From: Gammaproteobacteria bacterium
GTDB lineage: Bacteria > Pseudomonadota > Gammaproteobacteria > Eutrophobiales > Eutrophobiaceae
Length of the DNA: 57,417 bases
Direction: 5' to 3'
Assembly: GCA_030835405.1 (NCBI GenBank)
Contig: JAURPG010000070.1
Coordinates: 1-57,417 of the forward strand
The position numbers were made by a program, and so were the translations under genes. Of the stretch, positions 2,563 through 10,610 are shown piece by piece. Position 1 is the stretch's first letter. Each line of letters opens with the position of its first letter. The notes beneath the pieces are model-generated. The model saw only the letters and a list, made by a program, of their open reading frames with translations. It was not told the DNA's origin and searched no databases.

Positions 2563-3927
2563 TTATATGATTTTTACCAGTAAGGCGGATAAAAATCCAC
2601 CCAGTGTAGATAGCCCGACAACTGATCCCCCCATTTCATATGCCTCGGGCAACATGGTCTCAGCAATCATGGTGAGCATTGCACCAGCAGCCAGGGCCTC
2701 AATCCCTACCATAAAATAATATAATCCCCCCTCAGGACTGGGTGGAAAAATCACTGCGCCCAGTGCTGCACCCAGACCGGTGGTGAGAGTAATGGAACCC
2801 CACATGAGGTAGACCTTCCCCAGGGACAGGCCGTTGTCCCGCATGCTGACAGAGCTGGACATGGCTTCCGGCAAATTCGCAAGAAATACACCAACGATGA
2901 ATGCCAGACTAATCCCCCCAGGGCTGACCGCCAGCATGCCAATCACCAGGGATTCCGGGATGGCATCGATAAAGATACCCAGCCAGATCGCCAATGCAGC
3001 GTTCCCATGGGACCTTGCCTCCCCTTCACTTCTAATTTCTTCCGTGGTGACCGCGACCTGTTCTTTGTCCAGGGAATCCATTGTCTCCTTATGCCAATTT
3101 TCATCCACTTCCATTTCAGTCCTGACAGATAAGTCATCCATCCTGGATGCTGCCAGGGACATAATTTTGTCCCTGACCGATTTGTCTTCCTTTAGGAGCG
3201 TTTTAAAATCATCCCGGGAAATACTGTAGACCTGAACATCACCTTGCGCGATTGCGTCTGCCGTTCGCGGTCCTTCCTGAATGACCCCCAATTCCCCGAA
3301 ACAATCATATGTACCCAATGTTGCCAGCTTCTTATCTGCATTCTGTTCATGATGGATAATATCTACCTCACCATTGAGGATAAAAAACATTTCTTCTGCC
3401 GACTCCCCCTGTCGACAGATTGCCTCACCATCTTTAAATGTTTTCAGCTCTACTTCATGAATAAGATCTGCCATGAGTTCCGGCGGCAACTGGTTGAGGA
3501 TTTTTATCTGGCCAAGCCTCTCAACCAGGATCCTGGAACGTTTATATTTGACTCGCTCCAGGTAATGCCTGGCACTGGACAAACGGCGCATAAAAGCACC
3601 GTAATTATTTAATATTGCATTCAGACCGGAAAAGGTGATGCCACCGAGAATGGCTGAGAAGATCACCACATAGATGACTGTATTGCCATGGCTTTCAACA
3701 TGATGTGGGACATGACCAAACAGTTCAATGGTCAAGGCAAATAACAAGGCCCCGCCGCCAAACGCCATGCATATGGAATTTATTTTTTTACCTGGCCTGG
3801 TCCATAACCCCAACCAGGCACCAATGGGCAACGATATGGCACTAACAACGCCCCAGAAAAATGCTGTGGTTGTCACTGCAAGCCCTGCTTTCGATTTTGA
3901 CTTATTCTCATCACCAACCTGATTCAA
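2563..3927 (-). CDS. ZIP-like metal transporter with inserted cyclic-nucleotide-binding domain
   Basis: A 454-residue membrane protein. Three hydrophobic segments (about 20-42, 50-70, 82-105) are followed by a cytoplasmic stretch containing a cyclic-nucleotide-binding (cNMP) domain at about 140-250, then five segments from 308 to the end. The cNMP phosphate-binding cassette is recognisable: FGE at 210-212 and R221-T222-A223. The later segments resemble GufA/ZIP TM4 and TM5: GIFIDAIPES (about 317-326) and ANLPEA (350-355), where the usual H-N-x-P-E-G metal motifs are altered to D-A-I-P-E-S and A-N-L-P-E-A, with P-E kept. The cNMP domain sits where ZIP proteins have their variable TM3-TM4 loop. 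No DNA-binding helix is present. It is divergent from a SulP transporter that also carries a cNMP domain. Transported ion unknown; divalent metal is inferred from the fold. Confidence 0.8.
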   Translation of the reverse strand: MNQVGDENKSKSKAGLAVTTTAFFWGVVSAISLPIGAWLGLWTRPGKKINSICMAFGGGALLFALTIELFGHVPHHVESHGNTVIYVVIFSAILGGITFSGLNAILNNYGAFMRRLSSARHYLERVKYKRSRILVERLGQIKILNQLPPELMADLIHEVELKTFKDGEAICRQGESAEEMFFILNGEVDIIHHEQNADKKLATLGTYDCFGELGVIQEGPRTADAIAQGDVQVYSISRDDFKTLLKEDKSVRDKIMSLAASRMDDLSVRTEMEVDENWHKETMDSLDKEQVAVTTEEIRSEGEARSHGNAALAIWLGIFIDAIPESLVIGMLAVSPGGISLAFIVGVFLANLPEAMSSSVSMRDNGLSLGKVYLMWGSITLTTGLGAALGAVIFPPSPEGGLYYFMVGIEALAAGAMLTMIAETMLPEAYEMGGSVVGLSTLGGFLSALLVKII

Positions 3928-4090: not shown

Positions 4091-6199
4091 ATGCCAGATA
4101 GAAAAATAATCGGACAAATACCCCATCATCTGATTAATGATTTCTGGAGAGGACTGGCATCTATGCTGGTTGCACTACCCTCGGCTATTGCCTTTGGTGT
4201 GCTGGTGTATTCGGCGATTGACCCGGGACTCGCTGGAGAAGGTGCATTAGTAGGGATGATTGGCGCTGCGGCGTTGGGGATTACGGCGCCGTTAGTAGGC
4301 AGAACACCAGCGCTGATCACGGCCCCGTGCGCACCTGCCGCTGCTATTCTGTCAGGCCTCGCCATTACCCTGGTTCAAGGCGGGATTGATATGGCCAGAA
4401 TTCCTGGTCTGTTGGCCTTAACAGCATTATTGTCTTCGGGACTACAGATAATTTATGGCCTGATCAAAGGTGGCAGATTAATCAAATATATACCCTACCC
4501 TGTGGTTAGTGGATATCTATCTGGTGTCGGACTAATTATTGCCATAGGCCAACTACCAAAATTACTGGGACTACCTGAAGACCAGGGATTAATGCAAGGG
4601 ATTTTAGAGGTGACTGATTGGCAATGGCCTGGGATTGTCGTAGGTGTTGTGACGATAATCGTCATGGTCCTGGCACCACGGATTACCAAAATAATCCCTG
4701 CTGCCATCCTTGCACTAGCGGCTGGCATCATCTCATATTTTATCCTGGGAATCTTTAATCCTGTCATGATGACATTATCAGGAAACGATTTGATTATTGG
4801 TCCCATTCAATCCAGCGCCTCATTTACCGATACAGTCAGCGGCCGTTTCAGTTCTGTCCTCCAAATTAGCATGGAGGATCTGAAAATGGTCATCTATTCT
4901 GCTATGGCCCTGTCAGTCCTGTTATCAATTGATACCCTCAAGACCTGTGTCGTCCTGGATGCTCTCACCAAGAACCGTCATAACTCAAATCGTGAATTAT
5001 TTGGCCAGGGTATAGCCAACCTGGCATCATTTGTATCAGGCGGCATGGCTGGCGCAGGTACCATGGGACCGACATTGGTCAATGTCACCAGTGGTGGACG
5101 CAAACCCGCCTCAGGGATTGCAGAAGGTATCATGGTCATTCTTGCCATCCTGGTCCTGTCTCCGTTAATTGTCTGGGTTCCCATTGCCGCCCTGGCAGGC
5201 ATCCTGTTGGTAGTAGCATTTAACATGTTTGAATGGAGCGCATTCGGCTTATTAAAACATAAAGAAACCCGGTTTGATTTTGCAGTTATTGCCGCAGTCG
5301 TCATCGTTGCCGAGACCATGGGGTTGATACAGGCTTCCGCTACTGGCATTGGATTGGCCATTTTATTATTCATTCGAGACCAGATCCGTGGTTCCGTACT
5401 TCGCCGCAAATTCACCTTGTGTGAAATTTCATCGAAGACGCACAGGCTGGAATCAGAACGTGAAATACTCAAATCAAACGGTGAAGATGCTGCTGTTATT
5501 GACCTTCAGGGCAACCTGTTTTTTGGCACCACCGACCAGTTATTCACCGAACTTGACGAGGACCTTAAAACCCGTAAATGGCTATTATTTGACTTACGCA
5601 GGGTACAATCGCTCGATTATACTGCAGCACATTTATTCACCTTGATGGAAGAACGACTTGATGAACGCGGTGGTGATTTATTGTTTTGTGGTCTGCCATC
5701 GACTTTACACAGCCGTCAGGACCTCTATAAGTATATGAAACGTGTAGGGTTGATTAGCGACTCAGGGATTGGGATCCGTATTTTTGAAACCCGGGATTCA
5801 GCCATCGAATGGATGGAAAACCAGATCCTGGAAGAACATGGCTGGTTAAATACTTCCATTGACCCAGCGCTGAACCTCGCAGATATTGAATTGCTCAGGC
5901 AGTTGGACAACGAAACCATTGATAGCCTTAATAATTGTATAAATGAAATGACGGTCAAACCCGGAGAGAAAATCTTTAGCCAGGGTGATGAAGGTGATGA
6001 GATTTTTCTTTTACGGCGTGGCGTTGTTCGTATTTTACTACCACTTAGAGGCGGCAAATATCATCATCTCGCCACCTTTAGCAGAGGTGATTATTTTGGT
6101 GAGATGGCATTTCTGGATAAAGGCACCCGGTCAGCCGATGCCATCGCAAAAACTGAATGCGAACTTTATGTATTATCACGAAAAGAATTTAATCAATAG
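4091..6199 (+). CDS. SulP anion transporter with STAS and cNMP-binding domains, early TAG
   Basis: A 702-residue SulP/SLC26-family permease, probably for sulfate, bicarbonate or another anion. The N-terminal 10-14 membrane segments occupy about 1-435 and start with the typical DFWRGLASMLVALPSAIAFG stretch. A STAS domain follows (about 440-560, with LDYTAAHLF at the usual phosphorylation loop), then a cNMP domain from about 605 with FGEMAF and TRSADAIA (R-S-A of the cassette) near 668-685. The frame stops at TAG 6197-6199 inside the last cNMP helix, but the same frame continues for 36 more codons to TAA 6308-6310 with a convincing helix (VMGVQIFARLALAVSLRLR). The intact ancestor was therefore probably 739 residues. 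Divergent from the ZIP-like transporter with a related cNMP domain. Substrate is not determinable from sequence. Confidence 0.9.
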   Translation: MPDRKIIGQIPHHLINDFWRGLASMLVALPSAIAFGVLVYSAIDPGLAGEGALVGMIGAAALGITAPLVGRTPALITAPCAPAAAILSGLAITLVQGGIDMARIPGLLALTALLSSGLQIIYGLIKGGRLIKYIPYPVVSGYLSGVGLIIAIGQLPKLLGLPEDQGLMQGILEVTDWQWPGIVVGVVTIIVMVLAPRITKIIPAAILALAAGIISYFILGIFNPVMMTLSGNDLIIGPIQSSASFTDTVSGRFSSVLQISMEDLKMVIYSAMALSVLLSIDTLKTCVVLDALTKNRHNSNRELFGQGIANLASFVSGGMAGAGTMGPTLVNVTSGGRKPASGIAEGIMVILAILVLSPLIVWVPIAALAGILLVVAFNMFEWSAFGLLKHKETRFDFAVIAAVVIVAETMGLIQASATGIGLAILLFIRDQIRGSVLRRKFTLCEISSKTHRLESEREILKSNGEDAAVIDLQGNLFFGTTDQLFTELDEDLKTRKWLLFDLRRVQSLDYTAAHLFTLMEERLDERGGDLLFCGLPSTLHSRQDLYKYMKRVGLISDSGIGIRIFETRDSAIEWMENQILEEHGWLNTSIDPALNLADIELLRQLDNETIDSLNNCINEMTVKPGEKIFSQGDEGDEIFLLRRGVVRILLPLRGGKYHHLATFSRGDYFGEMAFLDKGTRSADAIAKTECELYVLSRKEFNQ

Positions 6200-8722: not shown

Positions 8723-10565
8723 CTATTCAGCCACTAAACCAACCTGCTGTATTTGCCGAGACGGACCATTCAGTGATTCCGTCAACCTCACCAATGAGAG
8801 AAACTCACTTCTATAACCAAACGGGTCATCTCCCCGAGCATCCCGTGCCAGGTCTTGCACGTCCTCATAGTCAAACTCTCCAGTTTGTTCGCCACCACGA
8901 AGTAGCTGACTGAACGCAGCCACCGCAGCGGCAAATCTGAAGTCCGTTGTGGCGTCATCAATGGAATCGATCATCTCACTCCTGTTTATCTGCCATTCCA
9001 GCAGTTTACTGGTATTAGCAACGGGATCTTTGTACCTTAGCTTAAGATATGCCAGCTCAGATGAACTAGCAGATACTACGGTGTCATCCTGGTATCGCAA
9101 GGGGTCTACTTTTTGTCCCCCACTTCCCACCAGAGCAATCTCATAGATGGCAGTCACGCTATGTCCAGCACCGATTTCCCCAGCATCCACATTGTCATTA
9201 TTGAAATCTTCCCGATTCAAGGAACGATTTTTCATAACCGATTAATCTATACTCCGCTACCAGGGCCGGATTAAATTCGATTTGAATCTTCACATCCCTG
9301 GCAATGGTCAACATGGTGGACCCCATTTCGTCTATCAACACTTTCCTGGCCTCGTTGAGTGAATCGATATAGGCATAGTTTCCATTACCAATGTCCGCCA
9401 GTTGTTCCATTAATCCGTCATTATAATTACCTGCACCAAACCCCAGGGTAGTGAGGGCTATACCAGTTTCACGTTTACGTTTAATGATATCTTTTAACTG
9501 CTCGAGGTTAACTGTTCCGACATTAAAATCTCCATCCGTGGCAAGTATTACCCGATTAATCCCATTTTTCTTAAACCCCTGCTCTGCCATGGCATAGGCC
9601 AGTTCGATACCGGCTGCGCCATTTGTAGAACCTCCGGCTGTGAGGCTGTCCAGGGCCGTCATAATCTTTACCGTTTCAAAACCAGAAGTGGGTTCAAGCA
9701 CCACTCCCGATGCCCCGGCATAGACCACCAGGGAAACCGTATCCTGTTTCCGAAGTTGCCTGGTTAATAGTTTTAATGAGGTCTTTAATAACTCCAGCTT
9801 GTTGGCTACCTGCATGGACCCCGATACATCCACCAGGAATACCAGGTTGGCAGGGGGCAGGTCCTCTCGGTCCTGCTCGTATCCCTTGATACCGATATGC
9901 AATAATCGCATATCCGGGTTCCAGGGAGTGACTGAAATTTCCTTATGCACTGAAAATGGTGCGGAAGGCTCCGCCTGTTTCGGGTAATCGTAGGTAAAAT
10001 AATTTATAAATTCCTCACTTCTTACCGCATCGTACCTGGGCAATTGCCCATTGTTTATCATCCTTCGCATCACAGAATAAGACCCGGTATCCACATCTAT
10101 ACTGAAAGTCGAGACCGGTTCTTCAACGACACGTTTGACAGGGTTATTATCAAAATGAAGATAATTTTCCCGGTCGAGTGATTCTAATGGCATACGTATA
10201 GCAGACATAGACTGGTCATACATTTCATATGCCGAGCGGTTTGGTATGGTTGGATATATGGCATCCACATCTTTACTGGCAATGGCAAATTCTTCCATTT
10301 GCCCATTTATAATTGCCCCCTGTTGATTCGCAACAGGACCTGAGCCGGTATTATCTGTTGATGCCTGAAAACGCTGGTCTGAGACTATGATTTCATTTGT
10401 CTGTAGCGTCGATTTCCTGATGTGCGTTTCCGATTGACCTGCCGTGATGGTTGCATGTGTGCCGTTTGTATTGTGAGTGAGTTCCCGTTGTGGGTCTGTC
10501 ACCGAACAGCCGATGAGAAATATCAAGAAGCCGAATAGAATTAATATTTGGGTTTGCCTGCACAT
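8723..10565 (-). pseudogene. YfbK-like VWA lipoprotein (DUF3520 C-terminus), frameshifted
   Basis: Two overlapping frames together give one YfbK-family protein. The first part has a lipoprotein signal (lipobox LIGC, about residue 20 from the chosen start), the VWA-associated segment, and a VWA domain with the MIDAS residues DVSGS, GGST and ATDGD all present. The second part is the C-terminal DUF3520-type domain ending near 8723. The frames meet at 9228-9232, a run of five A on the coding strand: with four A the protein reads LIGYE-NRSLNREDF without a break. The start is the ATG at 10565 with CAGGAG seven bases upstream. It precedes an ECF sigma factor, a common partner of YfbK-like genes. As written the product would lose its C-terminal domain; a sequencing error in the A run is equally possible. 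Confidence 0.85.
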
Positions 10566-10610
10566 TGCATTCTCCTGTTTGCATTGGTTCAAGGATACGA
10601 ATTAATCCTA

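Follow-up and report, generated by a model that had tools for sequence, protein, structure and literature searches.

We identified a protein in which a cyclic-nucleotide-binding (cNMP) domain is inserted between the third and fourth transmembrane helices (TM3 and TM4) of a ZIP-like transporter, encoded in a 57,417-nucleotide stretch of gammaproteobacterial DNA (hereafter the window, meaning that whole stretch). We hypothesize that this fusion is a ZIP-fold divalent-metal transporter set by cAMP or cGMP at its loop domain, a reading whose chances we put at about even, and we infer both the metal transport and the nucleotide gating that it entails. If it is correct, metal supply would be tied to second-messenger signalling within one polypeptide. 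Bacterial metal uptake is mainly described as being under the control of metal-sensing repressors. In the ZIP of Bordetella bronchiseptica (BbZIP), uptake is controlled by the metal itself (PMC10256678). No description of a ZIP-cNMP protein was found in the open-access literature searched.

Gene and domain architecture

The preliminary description placed the gene in an open reading frame at 2563-3927. That frame exists as the longest one (454 aa from a TTG at 3927) and is intact and stop-free throughout, but it lies on the minus strand and its start is probably a GTG at 3876, giving a gene of 437 aa at 2563..3876 (-). This start is favored because the ortholog in the Gammaproteobacteria MAG CALSRS010000001 (locus L018; 84% identity) has an ATG at that residue and is then likewise 437 aa long. 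All residue numbers given here are counted from GTG 3876, and all features of the fusion are on the minus strand. Between the two orthologous genes dN is 0.10 and silent sites are saturated; judged from this comparison, the protein sequence is under strong selection against change.

A Pfam search of the protein returned both expected families, Zip (PF02535, E 1e-11, 45.1 bits, above the cut-off of 35.1) and cNMP-binding (PF00027, E 4e-23), which bears out the original proposal of a ZIP-like transporter with a cNMP domain. The PF02535 scores of some relatives are under the cut-off (34.1 for L062 and 31.6 for L092), and L022 has no match. We also aligned the protein to an insert-free profile of eleven sequences from its own subgroup, drawn from plasmids of Sphingomonas, Deinococcus, Haladaptatus, Acinetobacter, Pseudomonas, Pantoea, and Rhizobium, two viral-collection contigs, and the genomes G741 and G303. 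Profile positions 4-98 matched residues 2-102 (E 6e-18) and positions 104-247 matched residues 288-435 (E 7.5e-47), defining a first ZIP part, TM1-TM3 (residues 1-102; 3571..3876), and a second, TM4-TM8 (residues 288-437; 2566..3015). Since the profile is nearly continuous across the join, the 185 residues between the two blocks (103-287; 3016..3570) constitute an insertion within the loop that joins TM3 to TM4. The position first assigned to the domain was thus right, although the domain sits between short loop remnants and does not replace the loop itself.

The same junction, with a break at about profile positions 96-111, is common to all 19 intact fusions that we collected. Together with the flanking profile blocks being in register and the selection against protein change, this recurrence places the fusion far from chance. 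A canonical ZIP matched the insert-free profile over positions 7-246 (E 3e-17), a match that connects the subgroup with the ZIP family along its whole length, and BbZIP structures matched TM4-TM8 of the window protein directly (E 6e-5). Through the two profile blocks, homology covers eight transmembrane helices in ZIP order, and it is this homology, not structure prediction, that supports a ZIP fold over TM1-8; a full-length AF2 model of the fusion, built on an alignment of only three rows, reached a pLDDT of 41, too low to be informative, and was discarded.

Nucleotide pocket and metal site

The core of the cNMP domain comprises residues 145-231 (3184..3444; 162-248 in the 454-aa numbering) and was recovered in a genome-wide profile search at E 5e-24. 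Its phosphate-binding cassette, FGELGVIQEGPRTA (residues 193-206; 3259..3300), agrees with the FGE-N8-RTA pattern read earlier and contains the expected glutamate (E195) and arginine (R204), the latter followed by T205. An AF2 model of residues 93-292, built from five rows, had a mean pLDDT of 77, with block values of 70-91 across the beta-roll and the cassette. Its order is a 28-residue helix, which in this model would continue TM3, then the beta-roll, the cassette helix, the B and C helices, and two helices leading towards TM4. The best fold matches were the domains of PKA RI-alpha, HCN, PKG, and SthK (Foldseek 2e-11), with Z up to 17.6, to PKA with cAMP, and many of the best-matching structures were solved with cAMP or cGMP bound. 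Homology, conservation, and the standard cNMP fold of the insert model thus all support a cassette able to hold a nucleotide.

Many cNMP-type domains bind other ligands or no nucleotide, and we weighed both possibilities. The first is that the insert gates the transporter in response to neither cAMP nor cGMP but to some other ligand, which might be a different nucleotide, a fatty acid, haem, or a metal complex. Some domains of the CRP-FNR type bind such ligands, those of the superfamily are diverse, and specificity is not readable from sequence. We nonetheless regard this as distinctly improbable: the glutamate-to-arginine cassette, complete in the fusion, is the hallmark of domains that bind cyclic nucleotides, and the genome encodes cyclases. 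Several class III cyclases are present in the window's genome, at least three of them in open frames (L080, L081, and L082), so a cyclic nucleotide is plausibly made in the host cell; no class I adenylate cyclase was found in that genome. The same genome has 16 cNMP matches. Certain of its cNMP and cyclase frames (L016, L079, L083, and L084) contain in-frame stops, which may point to decaying genes or to errors in the sequence.

The second possibility is that the domain is a structural or dimerization module whose effect is independent of cyclic nucleotide; CNNM metal transporters (CNBH domain) and EAG-type channels (CNBHD) offer parallels. Relatives with two inserted cNMP domains are pertinent here, as none of their 13 intact genes has both glutamate and arginine in either domain, so that the arrangement has been retained in them although no nucleotide pocket is evident. 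One of these relatives shows a weak match, under the model's cut-off, to CNNM2 CNBH (E 0.0068), and ZIPs and elevator transporters often dimerize via their scaffold (PMC9873690). Such a module would, however, hardly explain why the cassettes of all six single-domain fusions keep the glutamate and arginine and are fully canonical when the domains themselves share little identity (31-45% between the window and Bdellovibrionota fusions, against 69-72% for TM4-TM8). We consider a nucleotide-independent role unlikely, while granting it some weight, and retain cyclic-nucleotide binding as the preferred reading for the single-domain form.

The metal motifs of the fusion were read correctly in the preliminary description as altered, namely DAIPES in TM4 (2950..2967) and ANLPEA in TM5 (2863..2880). 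Aligned to BbZIP, D304 and E308 of the former correspond to H177 and E181, and N334 and E337 of the latter to D208 and E211; N178, Q207, and E240 are replaced by A305, A333, and A370, and in the TM7 motif AETMLPEA (2641..2664) E406 and T407 replace H275 and E276. Position 305 is a glycine in most relatives. The canonical binuclear ZIP site (HNxPEG in TM4, a QDxPEG-type motif in TM5, and a glutamate in TM6) is therefore absent, with only E181 and E211 kept. These changes are not specific to the fusion. Insert-free ZIPs of the subgroup share D[GA][IV]PE[SA] and [SAG]N[ILVF]P[EQ][GA], so the altered motifs, being common to members with or without the insert, are not a result of fusion.

Across more than 11,000 ZIPs surveyed from the major subfamilies, most subfamilies had histidine at the position of H177; glutamate there was confined to a minor share of the eukaryotic LIV-1 proteins and affected metal choice (PMC10372143). 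Against that pattern, the aspartate of the fusion is unusual. The M1 site could be carboxylate-only, with aspartate for H177, and the M2 residues are lost. This suggests, as a weak inference, a metal preference unlike that of zinc ZIPs, perhaps for Mn2+ or Fe2+. No description of metal transport by this ZIP subgroup was found in the literature searched.

Such departures would also suit a metal or nucleotide sensor built on a transporter scaffold, a transceptor with little or no transport, and the TM4 glutamate E308 is missing from L022. A signalling gene with GAF, PAS, GGDEF, and EAL domains, located downstream of the fusion gene in the window and in L018 alike, fits that idea as well. On the other side, D304 and E308 are present in all close fusions, among which the metal carboxylates, E337 being the third, are invariant; the altered motif is common to many insert-free ZIPs; the protein has no output domain; and a Pfam search of the window's genome found no second Zip match. 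Mainly because the primary-site carboxylates are kept in all close fusions, we find a pure sensor quite implausible and favor a protein that moves metal.

Distribution and genomic context

Five other single-domain fusion genes were collected, with 27-84% identity to that of the window. A genome of the window's own genus (G374) gave a profile match near-identical to that of L018 and is probably the same genome. At threshold, matches were found in at least 2 of 53 genomes of the window's order and in at least 4 of 369 genomes sampled from the class, including the insert-free relative G303; in a phylum-wide draw of 398 genomes, the window's own genome stood alone among the matches listed. Full-length fusions also occur in at least 3 of 291 genomes (G418, G661, and G768) of the phylum of L019, recorded as Bdellovibrionia. 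Horizontal transfer or repeated loss may account for so patchy a distribution. In the plasmid collection no record covered 80% of the fusion, and only separate ZIP or cNMP matches were returned; scans of viral contigs yielded two ZIPs lacking the insert and a single remote cNMP match. The insert-free subgroup ZIPs on Sphingomonas, Acinetobacter, and Pseudomonas plasmids (L086, L089, and L090) adjoin msrA or msrB, which are methionine sulfoxide reductase genes.

The double-domain form was found in at least 14 of 63 genomes of the order of G192, with one gene (L073) split by a stop. The ZIPs with a tandem cNMP pair in this order (L063-L078) have lost the cassette glutamate and arginine from both domains. 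In a tree of cNMP domains, the first and second domains of the double form make up two sister clades, the pattern that one tandem duplication would give. The domain from the window branches apart from the double-domain clade, and that of L022 falls among other cNMP domains. A ZIP tree computed without the insert-free long branch L068 groups all fusions (92/90), and an AU test of a single fusion clade gave p 0.195 when L022 was left out and 0.027 when every row was included. Taken together, the trees are compatible with one origin of the insert or with more. L022 is distant (27-29% identity) and may represent an independent insertion.

The fusion gene is paired divergently with a gene encoding a SulP transporter with a STAS domain and a C-terminal cNMP domain (4091..6199, plus strand), in which the cassette of the cNMP domain is intact. 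This divergent pair is conserved in L018, and a promoter scan of the stretch between the two genes found 3 sites where 1.7 were expected, too small an excess to be informative. The SulP gene stops at a TAG at 6197-6199 (+) where its L018 ortholog reads on, and past this codon the window's frame still matches L018 over about 33 residues (part of the C-helix), so its cNMP domain is truncated by a nonsense change or a sequence error. Further along, a vWA/YfbK-like gene at 8723-10592 (-) is split into overlapping frames (8723-9235 and 9198-10592), both covering part of the YfbK_C model, while its L018 counterpart is continuous.

With two disrupted neighbours, the window sequence may hold local errors or decay, which could lend some color to the notion that the fusion itself is two genes joined by an assembly or annotation error. 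That notion is refuted by the identical architecture and junction in independent genomes of other groups, several of them within one contig, and we attach virtually no probability to it.

A different context is seen in the Bdellovibrionota phylum, in three fusions that are 55-59% identical to each other (L019, 5399-6718; L061, 5984-7306; and L062, 2303-3631). Here the fusion gene lies in a division and cell-wall cluster, between a penicillin-binding transpeptidase at the ftsI position and a Mur ligase at the murE position, and in all three cases it is within 14 bases of the transpeptidase gene.

Proposed gating and known systems

The BbZIP loop between TM3 and TM4 lies in the cytoplasm and is autoregulatory. 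It binds metal through H149 and H151 together with D144 and E276, and an inhibitory effect on transport has been proposed for it (PMC10256678). In the elevator movement described for BbZIP, helices 1, 4, 5, and 6 move against helices 2, 3, 7, and 8, with the cytoplasmic end of helix 4 swinging away from helices 3 and 7 (PMC9873690), although TM2 has also been assigned to the moving part (PMC10256678). In the fusion the residues of the zinc sensor (M3) are missing, as N86 and T407 replace D144 and E276 and no PHxH follows TM3; the BbZIP type of sensor is thus absent. We hypothesize that the cNMP domain has taken over the role of the zinc-sensing loop. It would bridge TM3, a helix of the fixed scaffold, and TM4, a helix of the moving transport domain, and ligand binding would most likely shift the C-helix and so alter how the transport domain is tethered to the scaffold. 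Being attached to both helices, the cNMP domain could in this way hold or release the elevator. Ligand, metal, and direction are all part of the proposal, in which the nucleotide may either activate or inhibit.

More generally, these proteins might form a class of second-messenger-gated elevators in which a cNMP domain locks or frees metal movement, one lineage having duplicated the domain and lost its pocket and the Bdellovibrionota members being integrated in the division and cell-wall cluster. We offer this wider picture tentatively, as somewhat less than an even prospect. Since the insert joins two mutually moving parts, the fusion provides a natural switch for testing elevator gating, and the family has a built-in comparison in relatives with the nucleotide pocket intact or lost.

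Several known systems share part of this arrangement. Secondary or metal transporters with a cNMP-type domain include the sodium/proton exchanger SLC9C1 and the CNNM metal transporters, which differ from the fusion in their unrelated membrane folds and in carrying the domain on the C-terminal side of the membrane part; that of the CNNM proteins is reported as not binding nucleotides. The HCN, CNG, MlotiK1, and SthK channels likewise combine a membrane transport protein with a cNMP domain that shares the fold and cassette seen here, but there the domain is C-terminal in a tetrameric channel, whereas here it is internal to a ZIP-fold protein. The neighbouring SulP protein is also a transporter with an intact-cassette cNMP domain, although it belongs to an anion transporter family and carries the domain at its C-terminus. 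The insert-free subgroup ZIPs (e.g. WP_203431459.1 and WP_225523609.1, annotated as ZIP family zinc transporters) are homologous over their full length to the two halves of the fusion and have the same metal motifs (DGIPES, SNxPEG, and xTMIPEA), but lack the cNMP domain and have a loop of roughly 20-40 residues. BbZIP (PDB 5TSA/5TSB, 8GHT, 8J1M, and 7Z6M) has a homologous TM4-TM8 and, as we propose for the fusion, places regulation in the cytoplasmic TM3-TM4 loop; that loop is short, His-containing, and zinc-sensing where the fusion has a cNMP domain, and its binuclear site of H/N/E/Q/D/E contrasts with D/A/E/A/N/E in the fusion.
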